NCBI RefSeq assembly: GCF_000284015.1
Contig: NC_016943.1
Coordinates: 1,033,541 to 1,097,540 of the forward strand
Reading direction: 5' to 3'
DNA length: 64,000 bases
From: Blastococcus saxobsidens DD2
Lineage (GTDB): Bacteria; Actinomycetota; Actinomycetes; Mycobacteriales; Geodermatophilaceae
Each line of letters begins with the position of its first letter. Positions within the stretch are counted from its first letter, which is position 1. A model generated the notes under the pieces. That model was not told where the DNA came from and searched no databases. It worked only from the letters and a program-made list of their open reading frames with translations. Below are positions 3,460 to 24,036 of the stretch, piece after piece. Both the position numbers and the translations under genes were made by a program.

Positions 3460-4254
3460 ATGGGACCAGGGTCCGGCCAGGAGCCCCGCACGGAGCTGCT
3501 CGGCGCGGTGCAGGCCTCTTCGGGTCGCGCCGCGGCCCGGCCCACCCGCCGCCCCGCCCGGGCGCAGGCGCCCCGGAGCCCGGGGATGCTGCTGGGGGCG
3601 CTGCTCCTCGGTGGGGTCCTGGCCGCCGGCCTCGGCCTGCCCGGCGCCCCGGCTGCCTCGGCCGAGGCAGCCTCCGTGCTCGACGCCCAGGCCGCGCTGC
3701 TCACCGCGGAAGAAGGCGTCGAGGTCCACCCGCAGGCATCCATCTCCGTGGCCGAGGCCCAGGCCCGCCTGCAGGAGGTGGCCGCGTCCCGCGCCGCCCG
3801 CGCCGAGCGGCAGGCCGCGGAAGCGGCCGCAGCGGCGGCCGCTGCCGAGGCCGCCCGTCCGAAGGCGGTGCTGCCGGTCGCCGGCGCGCGTCTCACGAGT
3901 GGCTTCGGCAGCCGGTGGGGCACCTTCCACTACGGGATCGACCTCGCCGCTCCCATGCGCACGCCCGAGTACGCGGCAGCGGACGGGGTGGTCCTGCGGG
4001 CCGGCTCGGCCAGCGGCTTCGGCCTGGCCGTGTACATCCTGCACGAGAACGGCGACGTGACCGTCTACGGCCACATGGACAAGATCCTGGTGAAGCCGGG
4101 GCAGTACGTGCAGGCCGGGGAGACCATCGCCCTGCTCGGCAATCGCGGCCAGTCGACCGGGCCGCACCTGCACTTCGAGGTGCACCAGGGTGGGCTCGAC
4201 GGGAAGCGGGTCGACCCGGTCCGGTGGCTGAACGCCCGCGGTGTCAAGGTCTGA
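3460..4254 (+). CDS. Secreted M23 family metallopeptidase (LytM domain)
   Basis: The protein has 264 residues. It begins with a long basic N-terminus and a hydrophobic export segment (about residues 43-68) ending near PAASAEA. An Ala/Glu-rich coiled-coil linker follows (about 75-130), then a C-terminal LytM domain. The zinc ligands are visible: HYGIDLAA gives the HxxxD motif and HLHFEVH the final HxH. The domain is full length. The family cleaves peptidoglycan cross-bridges or acts as an activator of amidases. The ATG at 3460 follows a weak GACGGGCAGG ribosome site. It stands alone, just upstream of the tRNA-Ala gene, and belongs to the core chromosome left of the island. Confidence 0.9.
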   Translation: MGPGSGQEPRTELLGAVQASSGRAAARPTRRPARAQAPRSPGMLLGALLLGGVLAAGLGLPGAPAASAEAASVLDAQAALLTAEEGVEVHPQASISVAEAQARLQEVAASRAARAERQAAEAAAAAAAAEAARPKAVLPVAGARLTSGFGSRWGTFHYGIDLAAPMRTPEYAAADGVVLRAGSASGFGLAVYILHENGDVTVYGHMDKILVKPGQYVQAGETIALLGNRGQSTGPHLHFEVHQGGLDGKRVDPVRWLNARGVKV

Positions 4255-5659
4255 GCGGAGGGCGTTGCCGGGAGGCGACACCTGGCCACCCCGCTGCGGG
4301 GCCGCACGGGTGGCCCTGTACAGTCGTTCCCGGCTCGGACGCACCGACCGGGCCGGGTTCGGGGCTGTGGCGCAGCTGGTAGCGCACCACACTGGCAGTG
4401 TGGGGGTCAGGGGTTCGAGTCCCCTCAGCTCCACCCCGATGACCAGGCCGTTCCCCATCTGGGGAGCGGCCTGAGTCGTCTCTGGTTGCAGTTGTGGTTG
4501 CAGTTTGCCCACCCTTACCTGGAAGCAGCAGGGTGCCCATGCGGTCGGCGGCCTCGCGGGCCAGGGCGGGCATGACGTGGCTGTAGATGTCCATCGTGGT
4601 GCGCATCTGGCTGTGGCCGAGCAGCTCCATGACCACCCGGGGGTGCACGTTCTCGGACAGCAGCAGGGTGGCCGCGGTGTGCCGGCCGTCGTGCAGCCGG
4701 ACGTGGCGGACGCCGGCCGCCTGCAGTAGCCGGGTCCAGTCGTCGTAGTCGGTCTTCTTGTCGATCGGCCGGCCGTTGGGCTGGGCGAAGACCAGGTCCT
4801 CGTCCTGCCACTCGGAGCCGGCCAGCATCCGCTCGCCGAGCTGCGCGGCCTTGTGCCGGTGCAGCTCGCCGACAAGAGGCATCGGCAGGGCGAGCGTGCG
4901 CTGGCTGCGCCGGGTCTTGGGCTCCTCGTAGATCAGCCCGCCGCCCCGGACGCGGTGGATGCTCCGCCGGACCGTGAGCGTGCCCGTGAGCAGGTCGATG
5001 TCCTTCCACTGCAGCGCCAGGGCCTCGGACTGCCGCAGGCCGAGCGCGAGGGCGACGGTCCAGCGGGCGCAGTTGCGGACGCCGGCCGCGGCGTGCAGCA
5101 CGGCGCGGGCCTCGCCGAGGTCGAGCGCGGTGGCGATGTCGCTCGCGCGCTGGGCGGGTGGATCGACGAGCCCGGCCACGTTGCGGGCGACGTGGCCCCG
5201 TTGCATGGCAACGGTGAGCGCTCGGGACAGGATGCGGTGGTGGCGCAGCACGGTGGCGGGGGAGTAGCCGGCATCGAGCAGGGCGGTGTAGAGCTGGTCG
5301 AGGTGCTCGGGGCGCAGCCGGTCGAGGCGGTGCCGTCCGAGTCCGGGGACCAGGTGCTTGCGGACGGCGGACTCGTAGCTCTCCAGGGTCCGCTGCCGCA
5401 CCCGGCGCGGGGCGATGGTGGTGAGCCAGTGCTCCAGCCAGTCGGCGACGGTCGGGGTGGAGACGGCGTTGATGGTGCCGGCGTCGCGCTTGCGCTCCAG
5501 GTCGCGGACCTTCGCGACGACCACGGCGCGGGTCTTGCCGGTGACGTGCCGGCGGTCGGGCTTGCCGGTGAGGGTGAAGCCGACGGAGACGTAGCCGTGC
5601 CACCGCCCGTCGGCGTCCTGGTAGATTGTCGACTCGCCGTTCGATGCGCGTCCGGCCAT
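4244..5659 (-). CDS. Tyrosine recombinase (island integrase)
   Basis: The frame has 471 residues. An N-terminal AP2-like arm-binding region (1-50) is followed by a SAM-like core-binding domain (about 65-165, WLEHWLTTIAPRRVRQRTL) and the catalytic domain. Catalytic residues are visible: Arg in ALGLRQSEALAL, His-x-x-Arg in LHDGRHTAATLL, GH in LLGHSQMRTT and the nucleophile Tyr in MDIYSHV. It reads toward attL and has no stop before the repeat, so its last 49 residues (from SVVRYQLRH) are translated from host DNA antisense to the tRNA-Ala gene. In the excised circle the frame would end HTARPT-stop, using the sequence left of attR. A GAGGGG ribosome site precedes the ATG. Close relatives in decayed form lie at 18480, 24037 and 27360. 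Confidence 0.95.
   Translation of the reverse strand: MAGRASNGESTIYQDADGRWHGYVSVGFTLTGKPDRRHVTGKTRAVVVAKVRDLERKRDAGTINAVSTPTVADWLEHWLTTIAPRRVRQRTLESYESAVRKHLVPGLGRHRLDRLRPEHLDQLYTALLDAGYSPATVLRHHRILSRALTVAMQRGHVARNVAGLVDPPAQRASDIATALDLGEARAVLHAAAGVRNCARWTVALALGLRQSEALALQWKDIDLLTGTLTVRRSIHRVRGGGLIYEEPKTRRSQRTLALPMPLVGELHRHKAAQLGERMLAGSEWQDEDLVFAQPNGRPIDKKTDYDDWTRLLQAAGVRHVRLHDGRHTAATLLLSENVHPRVVMELLGHSQMRTTMDIYSHVMPALAREAADRMGTLLLPGKGGQTATTTATRDDSGRSPDGERPGHRGGAEGTRTPDPHTASVVRYQLRHSPEPGPVGASEPGTTVQGHPCGPAAGWPGVASRQRPPLRP
4361..4433 (+). tRNA. tRNA-Ala(GGC)
   Basis: The cloverleaf folds by eye. The acceptor stem is GGGGCTG against CAGCTCC with the alanine-specific G3-U70 pair, the D arm is GCGC/GCGC, and the anticodon stem CCACA/TGTGG carries loop CTGGCAG with anticodon GGC. 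The T arm is AGGGG-TTCGAGT-CCCCT and the discriminator is A. CCA is not encoded. The 3' half is the integration site of the island: bases 4392-4433 recur exactly at 18359-18400. Confidence 0.97.
4392..4453. repeat. attL: 62-bp direct repeat (left end of island)
   Basis: Bases 4392-4453 are identical to 18359-18420, offset 13967. The repeat starts in the tRNA anticodon loop, runs through the T arm and acceptor stem, and continues 20 bp beyond the gene. The bases just outside differ on both sides (4391 a versus 18358 c; 4454 c versus 18421 t), so the identity block is sharply bounded. This is the classic signature of tyrosine-integrase insertion into a tRNA 3' end. Confidence 0.95.
4483..4505. 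promoter_or_regulatory. Candidate integrase arm-type sites, left
   Basis: Two copies of TGGTTGCAGTT occur at 4483-4493 and 4495-4505, 12 bp apart, inside the island next to attL. The same pair, with one change, sits at 18220-18242 near attR with the same 12-bp period. Paired direct repeats flanking the core on both sides fit arm-type binding sites of a tyrosine integrase. The role is inferred. Confidence 0.5.
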
Positions 5660-5733: not shown

Positions 5734-5976
5734 TCACGCGGCGTCCGGCGAGGGCTGTGGACGGGACGAAGAGGCCTCGAGCCGGCGGACGTAGCGGTCG
5801 AGCTCTGCCTGAGAAATCCGGCAGCTGCGGCCGATGTGCACGGGACGCAGCTCCCCGCTCTTCATGAGCGCGTACACCGTCGTGCGGCCGACGCGGAGAA
5901 CCTCCGCCGCCTCCTCGGGCGTGAGGAGAAGCCGATCGACGACCGAGACCTCCCGGAGCGGCTGCGGATCACCCAT
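5734..5976 (-). CDS. Helix-turn-helix excisionase-like protein
   Basis: The protein has 80 residues with a MerR/excisionase-type winged HTH: LLTPEEAAEVLRVGRTTVYALM, then RPVHIGRSCRISQAELDRYV. This is the usual DNA-binding partner (Xis, helix_turn_helix_17 type) encoded just upstream of actinobacterial island integrases. It probably bends attachment-site DNA and controls excision. It lies 74 bp upstream of the integrase on the same strand. The ATG at 5976 is preferred because GGGAG lies 8 bases upstream; an in-frame ATG at 6024 would add 16 unrelated residues. Confidence 0.85.
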   Translation of the reverse strand: MGDPQPLREVSVVDRLLLTPEEAAEVLRVGRTTVYALMKSGELRPVHIGRSCRISQAELDRYVRRLEASSSRPQPSPDAA

Positions 5977-6241: not shown

Positions 6242-7695
6242 TGTCCCGGGTCTCGTAGAAGTTGAGGTGGCGGTCCCCCGCCCGCACCGGCCGTGAGGTA
6301 GGTGTTGGGCGTCCGCCAAGACACCACTTCGAGCAGGGGACCGCCGTGACCAAGAAGTACCAGAAGGACAAGATCGACACGCCTACCGGCGACGGAGTCG
6401 TCGTGCCGGAGCGGGTGAATGTGGCGATGGCCGAGATCGCCGGCACGATGCGTGAGGGCCTGCTCGCCCTCGCGGTCGGCGCCGGCCTGCAGGTGATGCA
6501 GGCGCTGATGGAGGCCGACGTGACCGGGATGGCCGGGCCGAAGGGCAAGCACGATGCCGGTCGGACCGCGGTCCGGCACGGCTCCGAGCGCGGGTCGGTG
6601 ACCCTGGGCGGGCGGCGGGTGCCAGTGAGCCGTCCGCGGGTGCGCGCCGCTGACGGCTCCGGCGAGCTGTCCGTGCCCACCTACGAGCTGTTCAGCGGCA
6701 CCGAGATCCTCGGGTCGATGGCGATGGAGCGGATGCTGGCCGGCCTGTCCACCCGCCGCTACCGGGTTGGCCTGGAACCGGTCGGCGACCACGTCAGCGC
6801 GGCGGCGAAGGCGACGAGCAAGTCGGCGGTGTCCCGGAAGTTCGTGGCGATGACCGAGACCGCCCTGGCCGAGCTGCTTGCCGCGGACCTGTCCGCATTG
6901 GACCTGGTCGCGCTGATGGTCGACGGGGTGCACTTCGGCGAATCCTGCTGCGTCGTCGCGCTGGGCATCGACTCCGAGGGGGTCAAGCACCCCCTCGCCC
7001 TGGTCGAGGGGGCGACGGAGAACGCCACGGTGGTCACCGACCTGCTGGTCGGCCTGCGCGATCGGGGGCTGGACGTGAGCCGGCCGATCCTGGTCGGCAT
7101 CGACGGGGCGAAGGCGCTGCGCAAGGCCGTGGTCGACGTCTTCGACCACCCGGTGATCCAGCGCTGCCAATTGCACAAGATCCGAAACGTTCAGGACCGA
7201 CTACCGCAGCGGCTACGCGGCCCGGTCGGCACGAAGATGCGCGCGGCCTACCACGCCGACTCGGCGCTAGAGGCCGAGGCGGCGCTGACCGGGCTGGCCC
7301 GGGAGCTGGACAAGACCCACCCGAGCGCGGCTGCCAGCCTGCGCGAAGGCCTGCACGAGACGCTGACCGTGCTGCGCCTGGGGGTGCCGCCCACGCTGGC
7401 CCGCACGCTGCGCTCGACCAACGCGATCGAGTCGATGATCTCCATCTGTCGTGATCACGCCCGCAACGTCAAGCGCTGGCGGGACGGGCAGATGGCCCTG
7501 CGCTGGTGCGCCGCCGGCATGGTCGAGGCCGGCAAGCAGTTCCGCCGGGTCAACGGCCACCTGCACCTGGCGAAGCTGCGCGCCGCGCTCGACGCCGAGA
7601 TCACCGGAACTGTCACACCCGCCGTGCATGATGAGGAGGTCGTCGCAGCCTGACGCACAACGGGCCGCCACCGAAGTTCTACGGAACTCGGGACA
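6242..7695. mobile_element. IS256 family insertion sequence
   Basis: The 1454-bp element has imperfect 36-bp terminal inverted repeats at 6242-6277 and 7660-7695, about 29 of 36 positions matching by eye, starting TGTCCCG at both ends. It carries one transposase. No 8-9 bp target duplication is visible in the flanks (GGGCGAGGT versus TCCTCCTCG), so the insertion is old or one flank was rearranged. Confidence 0.85.
6346..7653 (+). CDS. IS256 family transposase
   Basis: The protein has 435 residues from the GTG at 6346, which follows a GCAGGGGA ribosome site; an upstream ATG frame at 6262 overlaps the terminal repeat and is less likely. Family signatures are clear: LMVDGVHFG (first catalytic Asp), VGIDGAKALRKAV (second Asp region), CQLHKIRNVQDRLP, and LRSTNAIESM (catalytic Glu). 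The MULE/IS256 core appears full length, so the copy could be active. It moves the surrounding IS by a DDE mechanism. Confidence 0.95.
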   Translation: MTKKYQKDKIDTPTGDGVVVPERVNVAMAEIAGTMREGLLALAVGAGLQVMQALMEADVTGMAGPKGKHDAGRTAVRHGSERGSVTLGGRRVPVSRPRVRAADGSGELSVPTYELFSGTEILGSMAMERMLAGLSTRRYRVGLEPVGDHVSAAAKATSKSAVSRKFVAMTETALAELLAADLSALDLVALMVDGVHFGESCCVVALGIDSEGVKHPLALVEGATENATVVTDLLVGLRDRGLDVSRPILVGIDGAKALRKAVVDVFDHPVIQRCQLHKIRNVQDRLPQRLRGPVGTKMRAAYHADSALEAEAALTGLARELDKTHPSAAASLREGLHETLTVLRLGVPPTLARTLRSTNAIESMISICRDHARNVKRWRDGQMALRWCAAGMVEAGKQFRRVNGHLHLAKLRAALDAEITGTVTPAVHDEEVVAA

Positions 7696-8577: not shown

Positions 8578-9399
8578 TCAGGTCAGTGGCCTCACCCCCT
8601 GCCCGGCCAGGGCCTGGGAGAGGCGGACGCTGTCGCCGCTGGTCTGGCAGACGTGGGCGTGGTGCAGCAGCCGGTCGACTGTCGCGGTGGCGAGGGTCTT
8701 GGGCATGAGCTCGTCGAAGGCTGCCGGGTGCAGGTTGCTGGAGACGGCGACCGAGCGCTTCTCGTAGGCGGCGTCGACGAGTCGGTAGAGCCCTTCGGCT
8801 GCGTCGGTGGCGACCGGGAGTAGGCCGATGTCGTCGATCACCACGAGGTCGGCGCGCAGCACGCGGGCGATGGCCTTGGTGACGGTGTCATCGGCGCGGT
8901 GCCGGCGGACCAGCAGCCCGAGGTCCTCCAGGGTGAACCAGGCGACCTTGAGCCCTTGTTCGACCGCGGAGGAGCCCAGCGCCTCGAGCAGGAACGTCTT
9001 CCCGGTGCCGGAGGGACCGCAGATGACCAGGTTCTCCCGCCGGTGCAGCCACTCCAACGTCCGCAGCGCCTGCTGCGTTGGGGCAGGGATGCTGCTGGCC
9101 TCCGGCGTCCAGGCGTCGAAAGTCTTCCCCGTGGGGAACGCGGCGGCGGCCCGCCGGGTGGCCAACGCCGAGCGGTCCCGGCCGGCGACCTCCTCCCCGA
9201 GCAGCACGCGCAGCACCTCGGCCGGGTCCCAGCGCTGGGCCTTGGCCGTGGCCAGCACGTCAGCGGCATGCCGGCGGACGTGGGGCAGCCGCAGCCGGCG
9301 CAGCAGCGTCTCCAGATCATCCGGCAGCGCCGGTGCCGCCGGCGTCCCGACCGCCGGTCCGACCGCCACCGCGGATGCCGACCTCGTGGCGGCGGTCAT
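8578..9399 (-). CDS. istB: IS21 helper ATPase IstB
   Basis: The protein has 273 residues. It is an AAA+ ATPase related to DnaC with Walker A CGPSGTGKTFLLEAL and Walker B VVIDDIGLL, ending with the family's conserved region. It forms the regulator that selects targets and stimulates IstA. The start ATG at 9399 overlaps the istA stop (ATGA), indicating translational coupling; longer frames reading upstream from 9399 are shadows of istA. Full length for the family. Confidence 0.95.
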   Translation of the reverse strand: MTAATRSASAVAVGPAVGTPAAPALPDDLETLLRRLRLPHVRRHAADVLATAKAQRWDPAEVLRVLLGEEVAGRDRSALATRRAAAAFPTGKTFDAWTPEASSIPAPTQQALRTLEWLHRRENLVICGPSGTGKTFLLEALGSSAVEQGLKVAWFTLEDLGLLVRRHRADDTVTKAIARVLRADLVVIDDIGLLPVATDAAEGLYRLVDAAYEKRSVAVSSNLHPAAFDELMPKTLATATVDRLLHHAHVCQTSGDSVRLSQALAGQGVRPLT

Positions 9400-10967
9400 C
9401 GGGTCACCTCGGCGTCGGCGTCGGTGTCGGGGGCGGCGCCTGGCTTGGCGCTGGGACCGGTGGTCGGTGCGGCGCCGAGGGCGGCCCAGCCCGCGGTGCC
9501 CTGGGTCAGGCTGCGGTCCTCGGCCGCGGAATGCCTGGTCCCGTTCGTGCCGGCGGACCGGTGTTCGAGGATCGAGCCCAGGTCGGCCTCGGCGAAGCGG
9601 GCATGCACCGCGGCGTGCCCCAGCGCCCAGTCCACCTCGCCCGAGCCGACGAGCTTGGCCATCGTCACCGCGGCGGCCATCTTGACCCGCATCTTGGTCG
9701 TGCCCACCGCGGCGGCCTCGGTCAACCACAGCCGGGCCCCGTCGCCCAGAGCCAGGAACTCCACCTCGGCGGCGGTCTTCGGCTTGGGCTGGCGGTCCAG
9801 CGCGCCGACCGGTGCGGGCGGGAAGTGCTCATCGATCAGCTGCGGGCTGCCCGGGGTGGCGCGGGCGTGGCGGGCAACCTCGACCGGCCCGGCGTCACCG
9901 ACGTGCACGATCACCACCCGCTCACCGGAGCCTTGCCCGTGGACCCGGACCCAGACGGTGGCGCTCAGCAGGGTGTGCGGCACCGAGTACTGCCCGCCGT
10001 CGAAGGTGACCAGCGGCGTGTTCACCGCCACCGTGCGGGTCACCCCGAGCGCGACGGTGTGCGGCGCGGCCGGGATCGGGTGCAGCCGCTGCTGCTCCTC
10101 GGCCAGCATGTCCACCGGAGCACGGCGGGTCACCCGGTGGATCCGGGCGTTGACCTGGTCGCAGAACGCCTCGCAGGCGGCCTCCAGCTCGGCGAAGGAG
10201 CCGTAGGCCTCCCGCAGGTTGGTGTCGGTGGGCACCAGGTCGGCCTTGGCCAGCTTCACAGTGTTCTCGCTGCCGCCCTTGGAGGCGGGGTCGGCCGGCT
10301 CGCAGGTGTGGATCGTGATCCCGTAGTGCCGGGCGAAGGCGACGGTCTGCTGATTGCGCACCGGCATCCCGGCGACGTGTTCGACGGTGACGGTCTTCTC
10401 GTTGTCGGTCAGCACGTACGTCGGCGCCCCACCCAGGCGGCGCAGCGTCACGTCCAGCGCGGCGAACACGCTGGCGGTGGTCTTGTCCCGGATCGCCAGC
10501 ACCACCCGGAACCGTGCCCAGGCCAGCCACGCGCAGAACAGCGTGGTCCTCGCCCCGCCGATGAGCGGGCCGTCGCCGAAGTCGTACTGCAGCCACATGC
10601 CCGGCTCGGTCACCCACGGCCGGTGCACCCGCACCCGCCCGGCCCGAAACGCTGTCCGCACCTCCGCGACCGCGCGGCGGGTGGTGCGCTCCGAGCCGGT
10701 GTAGCCGAGGGCAACGAGCTTCTCGTGGGCCTTGTCCGCGCGGATCGTGCCCTTCGAGCGCTCCATCCACTCCTCGACCTTGGGCAGGAACTCATCGATC
10801 AGCCGCGGGCGCGCCGCCGGCCGATCGCTGATCCCGCCGGCCTCACGCCGCCCGACGTAGTGCGCGACGGTGTGATGCGAGCAGCCGGCCAGCTCGCCGG
10901 CATCGCGGTAGGACCCGGTCAGGTCGAACGCTTCCAGAATTTCCATGATCTCCCCTGCAGACTTCAC
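9396..10967 (-). CDS. istA: IS21 transposase IstA
   Basis: The protein has 523 residues. It has an N-terminal HTH (about 8-45, LAGCSHHTVAHYV) and a retroviral-integrase-type DDE core with Asp in LQYDFGDG, Asp in VLTDNEKT and Glu in KGGSENTVK. A C-terminal beta-barrel and a low-complexity tail follow. The gene starts at ATG 10967 inside the right end of the IS. All catalytic residues are present, so the copy may be functional. Confidence 0.95.
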   Translation of the reverse strand: MKSAGEIMEILEAFDLTGSYRDAGELAGCSHHTVAHYVGRREAGGISDRPAARPRLIDEFLPKVEEWMERSKGTIRADKAHEKLVALGYTGSERTTRRAVAEVRTAFRAGRVRVHRPWVTEPGMWLQYDFGDGPLIGGARTTLFCAWLAWARFRVVLAIRDKTTASVFAALDVTLRRLGGAPTYVLTDNEKTVTVEHVAGMPVRNQQTVAFARHYGITIHTCEPADPASKGGSENTVKLAKADLVPTDTNLREAYGSFAELEAACEAFCDQVNARIHRVTRRAPVDMLAEEQQRLHPIPAAPHTVALGVTRTVAVNTPLVTFDGGQYSVPHTLLSATVWVRVHGQGSGERVVIVHVGDAGPVEVARHARATPGSPQLIDEHFPPAPVGALDRQPKPKTAAEVEFLALGDGARLWLTEAAAVGTTKMRVKMAAAVTMAKLVGSGEVDWALGHAAVHARFAEADLGSILEHRSAGTNGTRHSAAEDRSLTQGTAGWAALGAAPTTGPSAKPGAAPDTDADAEVTR

Positions 10968-11207: not shown

Positions 11208-11351
11208 GCCAGCCGCTCCCATCAAGAGATCCAGACGCGATCATTTCGGCGTCCAACGGTCAGGAGCCTGAGATGGCGCCAAGCCAAAGTATCGGCCGAA
11301 GCCGCGCCTGCTTCACCGGAGGGCACCGAAGCGCCGGGTCACGCACTGGTG

Positions 11352-11378
11352 TGTCCCATAGTGGGCCGCTCAGTGACA
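11352..11378 (-). repeat. Cassette repeat B
   Basis: The minus strand reads TGTCACTGAG, CGGCCCA, CTATGGGACA. It contains the invariant AGCGGCCCAC. It is the last repeat in minus orientation; copies from 11903 on are in plus orientation. A further GTGTGGGACA follows at 11380 and may be part of a longer composite site. Confidence 0.85.
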
Positions 11379-11407
11379 GTGTGGGACAACGACTTCCCGG
11401 GAGATTG

Positions 11408-11854
11408 ATGAACGCGCAGGGCCCGAGCGATCACGTTCGCGAGCTAGTTGAAAGCTTCTTGGCCGCCAACGATCTGCGGTCAGCGGTTGGCGTGACGTAC
11501 GGGCGGACGTCCGATGGCGATGACTTGATCTCGATCCAGCCGCGTGCGGAGGGTGCTGCCGACCTCGTCCTACGGATCACCGTCCACGGCCGGCGCTACA
11601 CGGTGTACGTCTTCGTTGCCGGTGAGACCCGGCCCATCGAGATCGCCGGTCCGATCAATGTCAACGCCGATCCACCGCGTCGCTCGGCGGATGAGGACCT
11701 ACTCGAGGTCTTGCAGCTTGTGGTCAAGGGCGAGGTATTCGATGAGGTCGACGAGGAGGGGAGCGTCCTCGGGACCGACGTGCCTGATCCCCGTACTGCG
11801 GGCGGCTCTGTCGAAAGCACAGAGCACCGCCGCTGGTACAAACCCTGGTCCTGA
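11408..11854 (+). CDS. Cassette gene, hypothetical protein (148 aa)
   Basis: This small acidic protein has no family I recognise. It begins MNAQGPSDHVRELVESFLA with a short helical N-terminus, followed by alternating hydrophobic strands (LVLRITVHGRRYTVYVFV), an acidic helix and a polar tail. The ATG at 11408 follows a CGGGAGA ribosome site. Longer frames reading from 11075 pass through IS21 end sequence and repeat B and are not genuine. It lies 30 bases after repeat B and ends 49 bases before repeat C, the standard cassette spacing in this array. Confidence 0.7.
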   Translation: MNAQGPSDHVRELVESFLAANDLRSAVGVTYGRTSDGDDLISIQPRAEGAADLVLRITVHGRRYTVYVFVAGETRPIEIAGPINVNADPPRRSADEDLLEVLQLVVKGEVFDEVDEEGSVLGTDVPDPRTAGGSVESTEHRRWYKPWS

Positions 11855-11902
11855 AACCCCTGCAGCCGCAGCGCTTCCCGTCAGGAACGCCACGGCTGCG
11901 TG

Positions 11903-11929
11903 TGTCCCTGAGCGGCCCACCTGGGGATA
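11903..11929 (+). repeat. Cassette repeat C
   Basis: Left arm TGTCCCTGAG, loop CGGCCCA, right arm CCTGGGGATA. It contains the invariant AGCGGCCCAC. It sits 49 bases after the stop of the gene at 11408-11854. Confidence 0.85.
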
Positions 11930-12016
11930 CGCCCCATCCGAGCGAGGATGGTCCTGTGCGGGGCAAGCGTGCCGAGCACGATGTGTGCCTGGTCCGGCGG
12001 TAAGCGGAGAGCAACG

Positions 12017-12273
12017 GTGACCGAAGGCGTCTGTCGCCTATGTGGCCACGACGACGATGACGAGCGGTACTCAGATGGAACGTGCCGGGGTACGTCATCT
12101 GTCCGTGCTGTGGATCCGAATCCGGAGTCGATGACTCAACCCTCGACGAAGTCCCGCACTATCGGTCGGAGTGGGTCAGGCAGGGCTCCGGCTGGTGGTC
12201 CTCGCGTGCCGAGATGCCATCTGGATGGGACTTCCAGGCCCAGATGAAGCTCATCCCGGAGCGATGGCAGTAA
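12017..12273 (+). pseudogene. Cassette gene, CPCC-type zinc-binding protein with a frameshift
   Basis: The N-terminal half starts at GTG 12017 with a GGAGA ribosome site and reads VTEGVCRLCGHDDDDERYSD. The C-terminal half reads in another frame from about 12082: VPGYVICPCCGSESG and then WWSSRAEMPSGWDF to the TAA at 12271. Together they make a small protein with CxxC and CPCC zinc knuckles. Two extra bases (or one missing) near 12080-12081 separate the halves. It may be a pseudogene, a sequencing error or, less likely, a programmed shift. The C-terminal frame alone could be expressed as a 63-residue protein. Confidence 0.65.
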
Positions 12274-12305
12274 GGGGTGACCTGGCTGTCCCTTCGGCGG
12301 CCCAG

Positions 12306-12332
12306 TGTCCCAGAGCGGCCCACTCTGGGCGA
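12306..12332 (+). repeat. Cassette repeat D
   Basis: Left arm TGTCCCAGAG, loop CGGCCCA, right arm CTCTGGGCGA. The inner stem CCCAGAG/CTCTGGG differs from the consensus but remains complementary, a compensatory change. A partial copy (TGTCCCTTCGGCGGCCCAG) lies immediately upstream at 12288-12306. Confidence 0.85.
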
Positions 12333-12355
12333 GCGCGGGGACGTACGGTTCGCTC

Positions 12356-12832
12356 GTGGTCGCGCCCGCATCCGTCCTAATCGCTCGATGGCGGCGCCTC
12401 GACGCGGCCATGAGCCGTGCCCGGGCTGCGGACGTCGGCTCGGCCACGGAAATGCCTGACGCTGTTGTTGCCGTACTGCACGCGACGTACGACCTATGGG
12501 AGGTCTGGCGGCGCGAGGCACAGCTCAGCAGAAAGGCACAGAACGAACGCGCGGGTCGCGACGGCGGCGGGCAGACGGCTGCTGCGCTGATCTCTGCTCG
12601 CGGCGGAACGACTCATGAGCCCGTCGACTTCGCAAGGAACGAGGGCTTCGGACGCCAGCCCTTCGGGGTCACCCCCCTCGGTGGTGGCTGGTACTGGCAG
12701 GCGTACGTCGACGACCGCGAAAAGGTACGCGCCGGCTGGTACGCGAGCCGCGTCCGATGGAAACCGGTACTGCTGCCCCTGGAGGTTGCCCACGAATGGC
12801 TGGCCTCCCAGCCGGAGATCGCTCACCCCTAG
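12356..12832 (+). CDS. Cassette gene, hypothetical protein (158 aa)
   Basis: Starting from GTG 12356 the protein has a helical N-terminal half (about 1-75) and a compact C-terminal region (FGVTPLGGGWYWQAYVDD, then WYASRVRWKPVLLP) that looks like a small beta domain. I recognise no family. A likely -10 box TACGGT at 12344-12349 lies 6 bases before the GTG, so the mRNA is probably leaderless. An apparent N-terminal extension (MSQSGPLWAS) is translation of repeat D and should be ignored. The stop is 24 bases before repeat E. Confidence 0.65.
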   Translation: MVAPASVLIARWRRLDAAMSRARAADVGSATEMPDAVVAVLHATYDLWEVWRREAQLSRKAQNERAGRDGGGQTAAALISARGGTTHEPVDFARNEGFGRQPFGVTPLGGGWYWQAYVDDREKVRAGWYASRVRWKPVLLPLEVAHEWLASQPEIAHP

Positions 12833-12855
12833 GGCCCACTCTGAGCCTTACCCCG

Positions 12856-12882
12856 ACGCCCTAAGCGGCCCACTAAGGGACG
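12856..12882 (+). repeat. Cassette repeat E
   Basis: Left arm ACGCCCTAAG, loop CGGCCCA, right arm CTAAGGGACG. It contains the invariant AGCGGCCCAC. A degenerate partial copy (CACCCCTAGGGCCCACTCTG) overlaps the preceding stop codon at 12824. Confidence 0.85.
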
Positions 12883-12908
12883 CGGATCGGCCGGGCATAG
12901 TTGCCGCT

Positions 12909-13274
12909 GTGGATGTCGTCGTAGAGGTGGGCGGCTGGGAGCACGAGTGCTGTGGAGAAGCCATCGAGCGGAACCAGCTCGTCGACTTCCATTGCATCCG
13001 CTTTACCGGGCCGGACGGCCGGCTACGCCTCGTCGAGTCGCACCACGGCGGACTCAGCGTTGCGGCCGACGAGCGGGTCCAGGGACGCGTGATCGAGATT
13101 CAAGTGGTCGAGGAGGACGGGACAGCGCAGCCGATCCATCGCGTACCGAGCGGGCCGGCGCTGTGCGGCTACGACGACGACGGCGATGACGGCCACCTTG
13201 AGGCTCCCTGGACCGGTGACGTCGTGGCGTCGAGCAGCGTGGAGTTCCTCATTACCGTTCGGACCGCGCAGTAG
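12909..13274 (+). CDS. Cassette gene, small DUF6578-like protein (121 aa)
   Basis: The protein begins VDVVVEVGGWEHECCGEAIE. The W-x-x-E-C-C-G pattern after a short strand resembles the DUF6578 family of small actinobacterial proteins; I am moderately sure of that. The rest alternates beta strands and an acidic loop (YDDDGDDGH) and ends EFLITVRTAQ. A -10-like CATAGT lies 7 bases before the GTG, pointing to a leaderless mRNA. It is a single gene between repeats E and F, starting 27 bases after E and ending 47 bases before F. Confidence 0.65.
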   Translation: MDVVVEVGGWEHECCGEAIERNQLVDFHCIRFTGPDGRLRLVESHHGGLSVAADERVQGRVIEIQVVEEDGTAQPIHRVPSGPALCGYDDDGDDGHLEAPWTGDVVASSSVEFLITVRTAQ

Positions 13275-13320
13275 CAGTCACCGACCGTCGCGCGAGCCAC
13301 CGGTTGACCTCGCTCAACGG

Positions 13321-13347
13321 TGCCCCATAGCGGCCCACTTAGGGACA
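13321..13347 (+). repeat. Cassette repeat F
   Basis: Left arm TGCCCCATAG, loop CGGCCCA, right arm CTTAGGGACA. It contains the invariant AGCGGCCCAC. Confidence 0.85.
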
Positions 13348-13421
13348 GCTATGCCTCATCTGTTTCGTGCGCCGGGAGCGGTGTGTGAGGGACCGTGGTT
13401 CTCAGGACGAAGACATGTTCT

Positions 13422-13865
13422 TCAGTCCGCGCCGGCATCACGCGGGCCTCGGTCATCGAGTCGCCCTAGCGGTTCCGACCCCTTCACGCGGATATAGAAC
13501 CGCGGAGCCGTCTGGGTGAGCGAGCCAAGTCCTAGTCCGGCTAGGCCACTGAGCAGGATCGACGCCCCCGGCTCACCGGAGGTGAGCACTGCGGCCACAA
13601 GCCCCCCGACCAGCACTGCGAGCGAGAGCATGGTGGCGCCTGCCCACGCGTAGTCAATCTGACGAGAACGACGGCCCTCTTCGAGCTCGACAAGCTCGAG
13701 CAGCTCGCCTCGCACTAGCTCGACGACCGGTGGCCGGAGCTCGTCCGGCAGATCCTTCAAGAGAGCGACGTGCTCACGAAGCCGGCGTCGCAGGGTAGGT
13801 AGCCCGCGACTGACGGCTGCCCCAACTAGCGCGGTCACAACGACGGTTAGCAGCTGCTCCCACAC
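13422..13865 (-). CDS. Cassette gene on the minus strand, small membrane protein (147 aa)
   Basis: The protein has an N-terminal hydrophobic segment (LLTVVVTALVGAAV), a charged helical stretch (about 20-68) and two further membrane segments (about 73-95 and 100-115), ending in a polar tail. I recognise no family. The GTG at 13865 follows a TACGCT -10-like box by 8 bases on the minus strand, so a leaderless start is likely. It is the only cassette gene that reads against its flanking repeats F and G, an exception to the orientation rule of the array. Confidence 0.65.
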   Translation of the reverse strand: MWEQLLTVVVTALVGAAVSRGLPTLRRRLREHVALLKDLPDELRPPVVELVRGELLELVELEEGRRSRQIDYAWAGATMLSLAVLVGGLVAAVLTSGEPGASILLSGLAGLGLGSLTQTAPRFYIRVKGSEPLGRLDDRGPRDAGAD

Positions 13866-13888
13866 GACAGGTCAGCGTACGGAGCCGG

Positions 13889-13915
13889 TGTCCCTGAGCG
13901 GCCCACTTAGGGACA
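13889..13915 (+). repeat. Cassette repeat G (matches the consensus exactly)
   Basis: Left arm TGTCCCTGAG, loop CGGCCCA, right arm CTTAGGGACA. The arms pair over nine of ten positions. Confidence 0.9.
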
Positions 13916-14007
13916 GTCCGCGGTGGACGATCACCCACCTACATGCGACACACCTTTTCAGCCTCGCCTTCCACGACGCAGCCTGACGAGTACCGCAGCA
14001 TCGACCC

Positions 14008-14265
14008 GTGTACACCCTCCTCGGCGCCGACGGCCAGCCCTACCCCAGCGAGACGCCCGGCCTGCTGGGCGGCAACTCGGACGACAAAATCTACGGACAG
14101 CTGGACTGCTGGAGCGCCCGCAGGTGGATCGGCCGCGGCTACGAGAGCATCCGCGTCTTCTTCGCCGACGAGCAGACGGCCATCGCGGCCGGCTACCGGC
14201 CGTGCGGCCACTGCATGAGGGATAAGTATCGCGAGTGGAAGAGCCGGCAGCCTGGGAAGCCGTAG
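14008..14265 (+). CDS. Cassette gene, Ada-type metal-binding domain protein (85 aa)
   Basis: This small single-domain protein resembles the N-terminal zinc domain of Ada, the methylphosphotriester repair protein. The fold signature is readable: NSDDKIYGQLDCW, then RVFFADEQTAIAAGYRPCGHC. Three cysteines are visible (DCW and PCGHC), whereas Ada uses four; the fourth ligand may be another residue. Many stand-alone proteins of this type have no known role. The start is GTG 14008. An overlapping frame starting at 13943 is a shadow. It is the first of two genes between repeats G and H. Confidence 0.7.
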   Translation: MYTLLGADGQPYPSETPGLLGGNSDDKIYGQLDCWSARRWIGRGYESIRVFFADEQTAIAAGYRPCGHCMRDKYREWKSRQPGKP

Positions 14266-14455
14266 CAAATGGCGCAGCTCTCGAGCCGGCGCCCTGAACG
14301 TCACCGCGTGCCGCAGTTGAATTGGTGCAGCATCTGCACTGACTGTGTCGAGCTCCTCGCGGCAACCCCTGCGAGCCACCCTCCAGCCAGCACCGACTAG
14401 CTGCGCTGCTGGACGAGGCGGCCTTCGCTCATTGGTGACCACTACGGTCCTGGGC

Positions 14456-15013
14456 GTGGCCGAACCGAAGCTGCCCGACGCCCTGGTGATGGCGATTGGC
14501 AGGGTCGCGGTGAACGGCGCAATGCTCGAGCAGGACGTCGTCCTGTTCATGTGGATGACGCTGGGCCACCGGCTCCCCACAGGCGCGCGTGGAAGTAAGG
14601 CGGTACAGGTGCCCACTGGCCAGTTCTCGCGGGCCATCGACGATCTGCGGAGGATCGCCAGGATCCGCCTCCGAGGAGAACTGCGGAGGGGCTTCCTGGC
14701 CTACCTGGACGCGTCGAAGCGAGTCGCTGAGAAGCGGAACCGTGTCGTGCACGGGACGTGGCGGGCCGTCCCTGACGAAGCCGGGAAGCACCGTGTGCAG
14801 GGCCTTCGCGTATCGCCGCTCACTGGCGAGCCGGTGGTGGACTGGCTGTCAGCTACCGAGATCGGGGCAATCGCCGACGAGATCCACGCGGCTCGGGAGC
14901 TCCTGCGCTCTCTTCAGCCGGGTCTGTGGGCCGCCATCCCCGAGCTAGACGTCGCCAGGATCGCGGGCCCAGTGGCCCCTGATCTTGAGGCCGGCCGGCC
15001 AGGCATAGCTTGA
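14456..15013 (+). CDS. Cassette gene, HEPN-like protein (185 aa)
   Basis: This all-alpha protein contains VAEKRNRVVHGTW, an R-N-x3-H motif of the HEPN nuclease type, on a helix in the middle. The motif is commonest in toxins and defence proteins, but small HEPN-like sensors without nuclease activity also exist, so RNase activity is only possible. The GTG at 14456 follows a TACGGT -10-like box (14443-14448) by 7 bases, suggesting a leaderless mRNA; a GTG at 14435 would add 7 residues. The 140 bases after Ada-like gene's stop hold no repeat, so two genes share this cassette or a repeat was lost. The stop is 132 bases before repeat H. Confidence 0.6.
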   Translation: MAEPKLPDALVMAIGRVAVNGAMLEQDVVLFMWMTLGHRLPTGARGSKAVQVPTGQFSRAIDDLRRIARIRLRGELRRGFLAYLDASKRVAEKRNRVVHGTWRAVPDEAGKHRVQGLRVSPLTGEPVVDWLSATEIGAIADEIHAARELLRSLQPGLWAAIPELDVARIAGPVAPDLEAGRPGIA

Positions 15014-15144
15014 ACTAGCGGCTCACTCATCGCTCGCTATGTCGAGCTGCATTTCTCGCGAGCAGGACTTTGAGCGTTTGCGAGTGCGGGCGCTCACCGG
15101 TGCGGGCTGGGTGCTGGCATCGGGCGAATCAGGCGCCCGCGCGG

Positions 15145-15171
15145 TAGCCCGAAGCGGCCCACTCTGGGACA
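15145..15171 (+). repeat. Cassette repeat H
   Basis: Left arm TAGCCCGAAG, loop CGGCCCA, right arm CTCTGGGACA. It contains the invariant AGCGGCCCAC. The left arm is the most degenerate of the set. Confidence 0.85.
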
Positions 15172-15229
15172 CCTGACACCAACGCTTGCCTTCCGTCGGC
15201 TCGTCCGAGACTGGAACTAGCGTGCGGCC

Positions 15230-15586
15230 ATGATAGAACGCCGCTTTCTGCCTCTCGCTGACATCTGGGATGACCACGCGCCCGGCGCTCTCACGTGGCT
15301 GCAGGGTTGGTACGCCACACAGTGCGACGGGGACTGGGAGCACGGGTACGGCGTGCGGATCGAGACCCTCGACAACCCAGGTTGGCGCGTCCGAATCGAC
15401 TTGGCAGGTACAGGCTGGGCAGCATCGTCAATTGCGTCGATGGAGCTGCATCGCAGCGACCACGATTGGATCAGTGTCCAAGCCAGCGTCGGTGAGTTCG
15501 ATGCCGCATGTGGTCCTCTGAACCTTGGTGAGGTGCTGCACCACTTCCGACTCCTGGTCGACGGACCCCCTCGCCTGCCTGATTGA
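15230..15586 (+). CDS. Cassette gene, Imm53 family immunity protein
   Basis: The protein has 118 residues and matches the Imm53 family of immunity proteins from contact-dependent or polymorphic toxin systems: LTWLQGWYATQCDGDWEHG, then IETLDNPGWRVRIDL and HHFRLLVDGPP near the C-terminus. It covers the full family length. No cognate toxin is present nearby, so it is an orphan immunity gene, which could protect against toxins of kin or neighbouring strains (inference). The ATG at 15230 lies 6 bases after a TAGCGT -10-like box, so the mRNA may be leaderless. It is the only gene between repeats H and I. Confidence 0.9.
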   Translation: MIERRFLPLADIWDDHAPGALTWLQGWYATQCDGDWEHGYGVRIETLDNPGWRVRIDLAGTGWAASSIASMELHRSDHDWISVQASVGEFDAACGPLNLGEVLHHFRLLVDGPPRLPD

Positions 15587-15609
15587 GCGCGGCGCCCGAT
15601 CCCCGCCCC

Positions 15610-15636
15610 TGTCCTTGAGCGGCCCACTATGGGACA
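15610..15636 (+). repeat. Cassette repeat I
   Basis: Left arm TGTCCTTGAG, loop CGGCCCA, right arm CTATGGGACA. It lies 24 bases after the stop of the Imm53 gene. Confidence 0.88.
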
Positions 15637-15707
15637 GACGACGAGCAGAGCAGACATCAAGTCAGCTTCAGCTGAGGCGTGCGACTGCCAACGCCGAAGA
15701 TGTGGGC

Positions 15708-15992
15708 GTGACCGTGGACTTGTTTCGCCGTAGGGCTGCGAATCGACGGTCCAGTCGCTTCTGGGACCGGGGCATGTGGTTCTGCGGGCTGGCCCTCGCT
15801 CTTCTCGTGCTCGGCCTCGGCCTGTGGTCGCTGTCCGCGACGCTGCTCGGCCAGCCGGTCGACGCAAGAGTGCAGTCCTGTGAGACCGAGCTACAGGGTG
15901 CGGGACGCTTCGTCTGGAACGCCACCGACTGCGAGATGACCACCGTGGACGTCGACGGGCAGCCCACGACAGCTCTAGTCGAGACTAGCCGC
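15708..15992 (+). pseudogene. 5' part of a two-helix membrane protein gene split by IS4
   Basis: The first 95 codons begin VTVDLFRRRAANRRSSRFWD, followed by a membrane segment (WFCGLALALLVLGLGLWSL) and an extracytoplasmic part ending ALVETSR. The frame resumes at 17541 after the IS4 element and its 12-bp target duplication. The rebuilt protein has 160 residues with a second membrane helix near the end, like DUF3592-type proteins. The start is GTG 15708; in-frame GTG codons at 15702 and 15714 are alternatives. Confidence 0.8.
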
Positions 15993-17528
15993 AATACCGT
16001 TCAGTTAGGCGTCGGGCTCGGTTGTCAAGGGTCGGGGTGGACCAGGACGTCGATGCTGATGGTGGCCTTGTGGCTGGGGCCGCGGAGGCGCCCGCTGGCG
16101 GTGTGTGGGGCGTAGTTGGAAATCGCCCGCTTGACCACGCGCGGACTGGTCCGGCAGCGGCGGTCGGGCAGCAGGTGCTCAAGGACCTGCCGGCCGATGC
16201 CGCCGAGGAGGTCGACGGTGGTCTCGGCGATGACCCCAGCGGCCTTGATGAGCTGGTCGCGGGCGGTGTTCAGGGCGATGGTGAAGCTGCCCCGGTCGGG
16301 GTCGACGTCGGGTGCGGTGAGGGTGGCGTCGGCGATGGTGATCCGCAGCGCCTGGTAGGCCACCAGCAGGGCGTAGATCTCCTGCTCGAGGCCGGCGGGG
16401 GTGCGTGCGCGCAGGACCCGTCCGTCTCCGATGGTCTGCTTGAGTTCGCAGTAGGCGGTCTCGATCTCCCACCGCTCGTGGTAGAGCCGGACGAGCTCGG
16501 TGGCCGGGCAGTCCGGGTCGGTCACCGTGGTGACCAGTTGGTAGACCTCGGTGCGTTGCCCGCCGGGGGTGGTGATGGTGATCTCGGCTCGGATGACCCG
16601 GACCTCCAGTGGGCCGATCCGGGACAGCCAGGACCCGTCGGCGCAGCGGGCGCAGACCGGCAGCCGGCGTCCGGTCTTGACCCGGACCAGCAGGTCCGCA
16701 CCCCGGTCGGCGATCTGGGCGAGTAGATCGGCGGCGGCGAAGTTGCGGTCGGCCAGCACGATCATCGGCGCGCGCATGGCCGGCACCAGGTCGGTGGCGT
16801 AGCCGGTCTCACCGCGGCCGGTTGTCCCGAACGTGGTGGCCAGCAGCCCCCGGGTGCCGCAGGCGACCAGGGCCAGCAGCCGGATCATCGGATAGCCGGT
16901 GCCGCCGTGGTGCCCGCCGCCCTTGCGGTAGACGACCAGGTTGGCCGGGGTGTCCGGGCAGCACATCGTGGTGCCGTCGATCGCGGTCACCAGCCGGCCC
17001 CGCCACCACACGCCCTTGGTGGCCGGGCCGGCGGCCGGCCCGCGGAGCAGGTCGAACAAGGCTCGCAGTGGTGCCGCACCGATGCGGCGGCGCGCCGCGG
17101 CCAGCGCCGCAGGAGTCGGCGCCGGCACGGGAAGCCCGTCCAGGGCGGCGGTCATCCGATCCCACACCTGCCGGTAGCCGCACTCGGCGAACAGCACCGC
17201 GGACAGCAGCAGGTAGACCACCACCCGCGAGGGCAGGTCCCGCACCCGCTGCTGCACCGTGCCGGTCTTGGCCAGCACGGCGTCGACCATCTCGAACGGC
17301 ACGATCTGGGTCAGCTCACCCAGATGACCCGGCGCGAACCGGCCTCCGGCGACGTTGACCACACGAACGACCTGGCTGATGTCAGACTCGACGGGCAACG
17401 GAGCTCCCGGTGGAGATCGTCTTGGCGGACGTCCCCTCTTACCGGAGCTCCGTTGCCTGTTCCCGCATCGACACGCCGCAACAACGACGTCCTTGACACC
17501 TCACCGCTGCCGCTAACTGAACGGCCTT
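15993..17528. mobile_element. IS4 family insertion sequence with 12-bp target duplication
   Basis: The 1536-bp element has terminal inverted repeats whose outer 16 bases match at 14 positions (AATACCGTTCAGTTAG against AAGGCCGTTCAGTTAG), with similarity extending to TGTCAAGG further in. The target GAGACTAGCCGC is duplicated at 15981-15992 and 17529-17540. A 12-bp duplication is within the range known for IS4. It carries one transposase on the minus strand. Confidence 0.93.
16025..17398 (-). CDS. IS4 family transposase
   Basis: The protein has 457 residues. An N-terminal IS4-type domain (about 20-110) precedes the DDE core: VTAIDGTTMCCPD holds the first Asp, IVLADRNFAAADLL the second, and YHERWEIETAYCELK is the Y-R-E-K signature with the catalytic Glu. 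It appears intact and could be active. Confidence 0.93.
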   Translation of the reverse strand: MPVESDISQVVRVVNVAGGRFAPGHLGELTQIVPFEMVDAVLAKTGTVQQRVRDLPSRVVVYLLLSAVLFAECGYRQVWDRMTAALDGLPVPAPTPAALAAARRRIGAAPLRALFDLLRGPAAGPATKGVWWRGRLVTAIDGTTMCCPDTPANLVVYRKGGGHHGGTGYPMIRLLALVACGTRGLLATTFGTTGRGETGYATDLVPAMRAPMIVLADRNFAAADLLAQIADRGADLLVRVKTGRRLPVCARCADGSWLSRIGPLEVRVIRAEITITTPGGQRTEVYQLVTTVTDPDCPATELVRLYHERWEIETAYCELKQTIGDGRVLRARTPAGLEQEIYALLVAYQALRITIADATLTAPDVDPDRGSFTIALNTARDQLIKAAGVIAETTVDLLGGIGRQVLEHLLPDRRCRTSPRVVKRAISNYAPHTASGRLRGPSHKATISIDVLVHPDP

Positions 17529-17540
17529 GAGACTAGCCGC

Positions 17541-17738
17541 CCATATCCCCAGGGCACCCAGCTCACCTTGACCGCCTTTCGTGGCGCATATGCAGACCCC
17601 ACCCTGAGCAGTCACGAGCGCTGGCTAGTACCTCTCGGGCTGACGGTTGCCGTGGGTACGTGGTGGATGGGTTTCCCGTCGCGAGTCGACGACACATACG
17701 GCCGGCACTCTGCGCCCAAGCCGCAACGCCGGCGATAG
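17541..17738 (+). pseudogene. 3' part of the membrane protein gene split by IS4
   Basis: After the second copy of the target duplication the frame continues PYPQGTQLTLTAFRGAYADP, then a second hydrophobic segment (WLVPLGLTVAVGTWWMGF) and a basic tail ending QRRR at TAG 17736. It joins the 5' part at 15708-15992 without gain or loss of frame, giving a 160-residue protein. Confidence 0.8.
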
Positions 17739-17761
17739 GCGACGTCGCCATGGCCCCGTGG

Positions 17762-17790
17762 TGTCCCTGATGCCGCCTTCGTGGCGCACC
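17762..17790 (+). repeat. Degenerate class II cassette repeat
   Basis: The sequence reads TGTCCCTGATG, CCGCC, TTCGTGGCGCACC. The left arm is intact while the right arm has drifted. It sits 24 bases after the stop of the IS4-split gene and just before repeat J. Confidence 0.5.
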
Positions 17791-17797
17791 GGCCCGG

Positions 17798-17824
17798 CGT
17801 CCCTGAGCGGCCCACCTAGGGACA
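17798..17824 (+). repeat. Cassette repeat J
   Basis: Left arm CGTCCCTGAG, loop CGGCCCA, right arm CCTAGGGACA. It is the rightmost class I copy. Confidence 0.88.
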
Positions 17825-17844
17825 GGTCGACGAGACTGTTGGGC

Positions 17845-18219: not shown

Positions 18220-18242
18220 TGGTGGCAGTTTTGGTTGCAGTT
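18220..18242. promoter_or_regulatory. Candidate integrase arm-type sites, right
   Basis: TGGTGGCAGTT (18220-18230) and TGGTTGCAGTT (18232-18242) repeat with a 12-bp period inside the island, 117 bases from attR. They match the pair at 4483-4505 in sequence, spacing and direction. The surrounding 18146-18358 holds no gene. Confidence 0.5.
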
Positions 18243-18358
18243 GGTTTAGTTCGATCTTGGTTCGCAGGCGTCCGCCGTGGTTCGGCAACACGGTGAACCC
18301 GCTGCTCAGCAGGCCTTTTCGTACTTCCGTGAACTTCGGCGAACGCCGTCAGGTCGGC

Positions 18359-18420
18359 CTGGCAGTGTGGGGGTCAGGGGTTCGAGTCCCCTCAGCTCCA
18401 CCCCGATGACCAGGCCGTTC
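18359..18420. repeat. attR: 62-bp direct repeat (right end of island)
   Basis: This is the exact copy of 4392-4453 and contains the 3' half of tRNA-Ala(GGC). Together they bound a 13967-bp element. On its right lies a truncated integrase, so this repeat may also have served as the left end of an earlier tandem element. Confidence 0.95.
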
Positions 18421-18479
18421 TCCCTCCGGGAGAGCGGCCTTGGTCGTTCCGGTGCCAGCGTGCTGACCACCGGGGCAGT

Positions 18480-18648
18480 TCACGGTGCCGGCGAGCGCCA
18501 TAGCGCGTTGCCCATGCGGTCGGCGACGTCGCGGCCGAGGGCTGGCATGACCTGGCTGTAGGTGTCCGTCGTGGTTCGCGTCTGTGCGTGGCCCAGCACC
18601 TCCATGACGACGCGGGGATGGACGCCCTCGGACAGCAGCAGGGTCGCG
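18480..18648 (-). pseudogene. Integrase C-terminal remnant
   Basis: Read on the minus strand, 18648 to 18480 encodes FATLLLSEGVHPRVVMEVLG, then HAQTRTTTDTYSQVMPALGR and a short tail ending WRSPAP at TGA 18480-18482. It aligns with the last third of the intact island integrase and keeps the nucleophile Tyr, but all upstream domains and the catalytic Arg are gone. Unlike the intact copy, it stops before the tRNA repeat. Confidence 0.88.
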
Positions 18649-18815
18649 AACTACTAGAGGGAGGCGGCGCCGCCGGTGCCACCGTCGGTTCCGGGCTGTG
18701 CGTCCAGGGTCGCCGAACCCCCAGACGGCGATGTTGATGGCGAATGCGCTCAACATGACCATCCCCGGGACGGCGCAGCTACTCATCCGGCTGGCGGCCG
18801 TCGGCGGCACCTAAG

Positions 18816-20447: not shown

Positions 20448-20596
20448 CTCAGTGGGGCAGTCGAGGGTGGATCAGGCGGCGAGGACCTCGATCAACTCGC
20501 CGGCGCCAGCGGGCGGCACGGCGTCGTCGACGGGCAGCGCCTGGACGATCATGCAACACCGTTGCCGCTCCGCCACCTTACGTTCGCGCCGATGCG
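20448..20596. other. Gap between IS1380 and the oxygenase-like gene
   Basis: A short open run on the minus strand ending at 20472 (DDAVPPAGAGELIEVLAA) looks like the tail of a gene cut off by rearrangement. Nothing else is visible. Confidence 0.3.
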
Positions 20597-22861: not shown

Positions 22862-23073
22862 GCGTCCTCGCCCGCGCTCGCCATGGTCCTTCCGCATTCC
22901 GACTGTAGCGGCGGGGCGGGTAACGGGGGTTCGGGCGGTGGTCGCTCTCCGGCCGGAGGCCGAGCGGGTGCTTCCGACGGCGACTACGGGCCGGATGCGC
23001 CCACGGCCGCCGCGTTTCTACGGCCAGCGGGAGCTTGCTCACGGCCGATAACGCATTCGGTTATCTTGGTTGG
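22862..23073. promoter_or_regulatory. Divergent promoter region with an inverted repeat before the MNT gene
   Basis: GATAAC (23047-23052) and GTTATC (23060-23065) form an inverted repeat that overlaps a possible -10 box (TATCTT) 7 bases before the GTG at 23074. This fits an autoregulatory operator for the HTH-containing antitoxin. Inferred. Confidence 0.4.
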
Positions 23074-23891: not shown

Positions 23892-24036
23892 CCGGCCCAG
23901 CAGCTTCCGGCTCCGGTACGCCCGCCACCGCGACCCCGCCGGCATGCGCGGCCTGCCCGTCGTTGTCGATCTGCGGGCGCTCATCGGGGCGATCAGGCGG
24001 CTCTGCCACGTGGTGCCACGACGCCTTACCTGGCAG

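Follow-up and report, generated by a model that had tools for sequence, protein, structure and literature searches.

The attachment site (attP) of a 14-kb genomic island in Blastococcus saxobsidens DD2 appears to be embedded in the 3' end of the island's own tyrosine integrase gene (int). The island lies in the 64,000-nucleotide stretch of DNA analysed here (the window), and because attP lies inside int, integration swaps the C-terminus of the predicted integrase (Int) at the sequence level. The embedded site would comprise arm-type sites, a hairpin and the antisense 3' half of a tRNA-Ala gene, which holds the core. The circle would close int three codons past the core with a TGA from the opposite attP arm; crossover within the core would part int from that TGA and join it to host DNA, and the integrated frame would continue to the first host stop. 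In the integrated state the swap most likely has no function, the host-derived tail being a disordered by-product, and selection, whether on the gene, the DNA site or both, would maintain the circular-form end. We give this reading as a whole a probability of about 0.78. The placement of attP in int, known from Myxococcus phage Mx8, also occurs in a family of islands at the tRNA-Ala gene of many Geodermatophilaceae.

The integrase reading frame and its two ends

In the integrated state, int runs from 5659 to 4244 on the minus strand and encodes 471 amino acids followed by a stop. The initial annotation had placed no integrase stop within the island; indeed, none lies between the catalytic part and attL, and the frame stays open through attL to 4244, with a stop that coincides in part with the end of a host M23 peptidase gene (3460-4254). 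The last codon to fall fully inside the 62-bp core is that of residue 422, and the annotated gain of 49 residues beyond it was found as described (423-471; 4244-4393 with the stop, minus strand). These residues had all been called antisense to tRNA-Ala, which is true of 11 (423-433); for the remaining 38 the opposite strand is host DNA upstream of the tRNA. When the core is joined to the bases left of 18359, as in the circular form, the frame crosses the core and Int ends ...HTA-R-P-T-stop after 425 amino acids, the three-codon ending originally proposed. The bases supplying this end lie at 18349-18358 (minus strand), the R codon being shared with the core. The attP core is thus placed within the int reading frame, and in the window sequence the 3' end of int is exchanged for host sequence upon integration. 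The window and its relatives bear out a state-dependent C-terminus of the frame; the geometry and both frames can be read directly from the DNA, and both forms of Int are presumably made.

The integrase matches the Pfam families Phage_integrase (PF00589, 8.5e-24) and Phage_int_SAM_3 (PF14659, 2e-9). Tyrosine recombinases share the catalytic motif R-K-HxxR-H-Y, and R209, K248, H323, R326, H349 and Y359, which we take to be the catalytic residues, were invariant across 21 aligned sequences. The catalytic domain aligned with solved integrases up to about residue 374 and its fold ends near residue 378 (about position 4526), the last catalytic helix spanning 364-378 in an AlphaFold model of only moderate quality (mean pLDDT 69.4; 21 sequences). 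Residues 382-471 had pLDDT values below 50, as did residues 1-10 and 350-361; since the latter surround the catalytic tyrosine, low pLDDT is not limited to the tail. An excisionase-type helix-turn-helix protein of 80 amino acids (5734-5976, minus strand; HTH_17, TIGR01764) is encoded upstream of int.

The island and its attachment sites

The island is delimited by an exact 62-bp repeat, with attL at 4392-4453 and the right copy at 18359-18420. The 3' half of a tRNA-Ala(ggc) gene (4361-4435, plus strand) is directly repeated at both ends, and at attL the island rebuilds the tRNA. The initial annotation took all 62 bp as the core. The repeat is exact, but as a core it is probably over-long, the corresponding repeat being 45-48 bp in six relatives with an upstream copy, and the true core is likely to be the tRNA portion alone (4392-4435); the circular product stays the same. 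The additional bases probably match because the window's right copy, which is the attR of island 1 and doubles as an older element's left end, directly adjoins the end of a further, related element.

Beyond island 1, at 18359-24826, two older elements have left remnants. One is a relic of the second integrase type (18506-18660, minus strand; the type of the 66% relatives), in which the frame ends ahead of the core with ...ALWRSPAP-stop (L010), and the other is a broken relic of a first-type integrase (24041-24826, minus strand), beside which no core copy was found at up to three mismatches. The two remnants suggest repeated accretion at one tRNA gene.

Apart from int and the excisionase gene, the six ORFs of island 1 that were scanned comprised transposase genes, one DUF7336 gene and one without a match. 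Actinomycete ICEs (AICEs) are defined by int together with tra and rep modules (PMC3218068). Transposase genes (Mutator-, IS21- and IS4-type, and DDE_Tnp_1_4) crowd the islands at 6262-7653, 8578-10967, 16025-17398 and 19023-20327. A 31-nt palindrome-like repeat (centre GTCCCTGAGCGGCCCACTTAGGGAC) was present in nine copies at 11349-17825 in island 1; its 25-nt centre, at up to three mismatches, gave 13 matches at 12 places in the genome, seven of them in island 1.

DNA features within the 3' end of int

Beyond the part that encodes the catalytic domain, the int ORF spans proposed arm-type repeats, a terminator-like hairpin and, in antisense, the 3' half of tRNA-Ala. Two AACTGCAACC repeats lie inside the ORF at 4484-4505 (minus strand), in DNA that varies little among relatives, and a matching pair (AACTGCCACC, AACTGCAACC) lies across attP at 18221-18242 (minus strand). 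Similar pairs were present in all of the relatives' attR arms displayed except that of L062. At no more than one mismatch, the motif matched four times in the window against 1.09 expected, always adjoining one of the two core copies, and at least four matches occurred in 2 of 100 shuffles. In L042, whose integrase is 66-71% identical, the repeats were by eye the recognisable DNA left in an otherwise diverged linker. From these observations we infer that the AACTGCAACC repeats are arm-type sites that bind Int. Diversity at the three codon positions was 0.029/0.108/0.085 in the arm repeats and 0.062/0.049/0.214 in the catalytic part; because the repeats, unlike the catalytic part, lack an excess at third positions, this stretch seems to be constrained as DNA. 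Diversity was near zero at all codon positions in the tRNA part of the ORF.

A 13-bp hairpin (4444-4473, plus strand) lies just 3' of the tRNA and inside the int ORF (residues ~396-406). In 27 distinct rows, 92.3% of its cells were paired. Two of five hairpin measures did not rise above shuffles: 11 cells were changed on both sides and neither this count nor the covariation score was reached in any of 500 shuffles, while two pairs changed on both sides and eight further pair types were equalled in 70 and 405 of 500, respectively. The hairpin folds strongly on both strands (z of -6.2 on the plus, or tRNA, strand and -4.1 on the minus, or int, strand), and its position in the ORF before the core raises the prospect that the tail is never made. 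Transcription of int could end at the hairpin, or the protein could be clipped, and the same functional protein would be present in both states; a message ending at the hairpin would have no stop codon in either state. We consider this unlikely. The plus strand folds better (-40.2 vs. -34 kcal/mol), so the hairpin is a better fit to the tRNA transcript, neither strand has a T-run after it, and the conserved TGA past the core would be left without a coding role. More probably, the hairpin is the terminator of tRNA-Ala and ends the tRNA transcript. Its segment of the ORF did show a third-position excess (0.103/0.098/0.290), which could mean protein-level selection on the tail and weighs partly against our reading; stem pairing could also produce it.

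Comparison with known systems

The host targets of phage Mx8 are tRNA-Asp genes. According to a 2018 review (PMC6070905, citing Tojo 1996 and Magrini 1999), attP of this Myxococcus phage is located in int and integration gives int a new 3' end, which is reported to alter but not abolish activity and to change specificity. As in the window, attP is inside the int coding sequence and the 3' end of int is replaced upon integration; with Mx8 as a direct precedent, the placement of attP in int is therefore an arrangement already known. The present case differs in being a genomic island at tRNA-Ala in Geodermatophilaceae and in having an ORF that also spans the hairpin and the proposed arm repeats, with the circular stop three codons past the core. 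Mycobacteriophage BPs is similar in that attP lies inside a gene and integration alters the C-terminus of its product. That gene encodes the repressor, however, and not the integrase as in the window; as described in PMC4557955, integration removes a degradation tag, the integrated form being shorter and stable and the viral form carrying the tag. No closer system than Mx8, Mx9 and BPs was recognised in the literature searched.

Conservation of the frame among relatives

Of 79 loci, 31 with full-length integrases above 80% identity formed the set of relatives, from which shorter, broken and more distant loci were dropped. With the window included, the frame was open into the core in 30 of 32 full-length sequences, which are close to one another and not independent. 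The two exceptions, L037 (+4 nt) and L040 (-1 nt), had lost the frame despite an open catalytic part, and the tail frames of L044 and L086, among the dropped loci, were shifted too. Twenty-six of the 31 relatives lay beside tRNA-Ala, 24 of these in the frame of the window, and five beside other sequence. Over the linker and 44 bp of the tRNA, stops occurred in frame 0 of one of the 32 sequences, in frame 1 of seven and in frame 2 of 31; since frame 1 has a stop in only 7 of 32, the open frame alone is unremarkable.

The circular-form end

Core junctions were collected from 112 family genomes by searching for the exact core with a G directly after it, since both known arm types begin with that base; junctions with an altered core or another starting base would escape this search. 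Fifty-four core junctions outside tRNA genes, of two element types, were found in 47 of the 112 genomes. A TGCAACC-type motif lay within 160 bp of the junction, at no more than one mismatch, in 37 of the 54; the GTGGCACCA motif we assign to the second element type at tRNA-Ala. Because 36 of the 54 junctions have an in-frame TGA after three codons, the circular-form end of int looks maintained. Ahead of the TGA, these 36 encode an R whose codon is shared with the core, then Pro or Gly, then Ser or Thr, the last codon being TCA in 16, ACC in 13, TCG, ACT and TCT in two each and AGT in one. The TGCAACC-type motif accompanied 34 of them, one of which also had the GTGGCACCA motif, and two had neither. 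The three-codon stop was absent from all 15 junctions with the GTGGCACCA motif only and from L212, L216 and L242, which had TGCAACC-like matches. By these counts, the stop is usual in elements with an int that reads into the core and absent from the others, an association for which the close kinship of the junctions prevents a formal test. Within the genus, a second core copy (attR) was found in 8 of 11 genomes searched upstream, and where int and attR could be linked in one genome, seven of eight had the TGA after three codons, the exception being G010. With the 54 natural junctions, the conserved parts (repeats, hairpin and circular stop) can in this way be told apart from the host tail, which is not conserved.

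The post-core TGA might instead belong to a DNA site within the attP arm, kept for recombination rather than as a stop, which we regard as a tentative possibility. Post-core bases 16, 18 and 26 likewise never vary among the 36 arms and are consistent with phased GTTCG-type repeats, and L037 and G003 (the L040 genome), where int is out of frame, still have the TGA in the arm. A stop codon accounts better for three other observations: third codon positions 4 and 7 vary while the TGA is constant, the Ser or Thr before it is spelled in six ways, and the 15 junctions with only the type-2 arm motif lack it.

A 47-codon tail read into the type-2 arm was also considered as the circular end of this element and was rejected, that arm carrying the type-2 motif. 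In G014, one contig carries both a type-2 integrase and, about 24 kb upstream of it, the type-2-arm junction L217. Across seven arms, the type-2 arm tail had a dN/dS of 0.64 (the other frames gave 1.05 and 0.83), which is not convincing. Read in the frame of type-1 int, type-2-like arms (among L209-L262) gave 47 codons ending in -AA in 10 of 16 cases (7 of 13 distinct); chance and DNA constraint are indistinguishable as the source of this ending, and either may apply.

The host-derived tail

At 36 tRNA-Ala loci, counting intact and broken integrases alike, the frame of the window's int ran for 23-306 codons (median 89) from the core to its first stop. The other two frames had medians of 81 and 80 at these loci (Wilcoxon p 0.99 and 0.83), and selection on the host tail was accordingly rejected. 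Since their lengths match those of the other frames, the tails are what host DNA gives. Their sequence varies among relatives as does their length, and they lie after the last catalytic helix, which ends at residue 378, in a region predicted to be disordered in the moderate AlphaFold model. The predicted C-terminus of an integrase beside a tRNA gene can therefore be host sequence, and should be read with that warning in mind.

The initial annotation went on to suggest a built-in state switch, in which the long, host-fused Int and the short, circular Int differ in activity, specificity or stability. Mx8, whose integrase reportedly stays active with changed specificity, and BPs, whose repressor loses a degradation tag, provide models for such a switch, and the circular end is conserved. 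Tail lengths no different from those of any frame at the 36 loci, the predicted disorder and the out-of-frame L037 and L040 with their open catalytic parts all speak against it. Degradation tags of the ssrA-like kind end in a C-terminal -AA, which neither tail has. The host tail is thus not supported as an evolved switch that tunes Int, and we consider such a switch improbable; an incidental effect of the tail on Int activity is possible.

In L014, L015, L027, L033, L048 and L061, the frame enters a type-2 arm instead of host DNA, and these loci are probably tandem arrays; no second integrase or tRNA was found downstream within the stretch examined. It is conceivable, and in our view very unlikely, that the int frame reports on its neighbour, with the stop selected only for the circle and fused or non-stop Int degraded, which would lock elements in place. 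Int would then be fused either to host DNA or to the arm of a neighbouring element (in the type-2 case often by 47 codons ending in -AA), and the terminator-like hairpin in the ORF could yield products that are degraded, lowering Int. The alternatives considered here and above are not exclusive of one another or of parts of the main reading, in which the tail is a by-product and the circular end is kept.

Other integrases

The type-2 integrases (L106 and L107), about 66% identical, share with the window the tRNA, the hairpin and a related protein. They differ in their core-near repeats and in that int stops 78 nt before the tRNA end, so integration would leave the type-2 int unchanged. A FastTree tree of 25 rows placed L042, which reads through, together with L265, which does not, as neighbours of the window clade; the type-2 integrases fell outside. 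This topology implies that the read-through trait changed at least twice.

Forty-three distant integrase loci (14 stretches from the window's own genome and 29 from the class) were compared, 40 of them with a usable C-terminal match. Among these loci, 26 had an opposite-strand tRNA within 600 bp (L206 being broken), and three of the 26 (L165, L171 and L184) read into it, which indicates that an int reading into the tRNA is not the usual arrangement. For L165, only an imperfect second core copy was found. L171, at a tRNA-Ala(TGC) of the same genome (~19.7-20.6 kb), is a second integrase with a state-dependent C-terminus. Like the window's int it reads into the tRNA, which contains its 43-bp core, and its island measures about 15 kb, but it is 27.6% identical to the window's integrase over the aligned part and its circular form would be 11 residues longer, not shorter.

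Viral contigs gave exact core matches at L263 and L264, where the integrase matches were only distant (39% and 27%), and 49 integrase relatives, of which the nearest, L265 (74%), stops before its tRNA. Close relatives were found neither in the plasmid collection (460 records, one at 60-80% identity and 459 below 60%) nor in the phage collection (all 2302 records below 60%). The best matches of a broad Pfam survey looked Xer-like by length (~300-330 aa), and that survey was set aside for a protein-based one. The 4.9-Mb genome that contains the window has 20 integrase-like stretches, some of them pieces of one relic and several beside tRNA genes.
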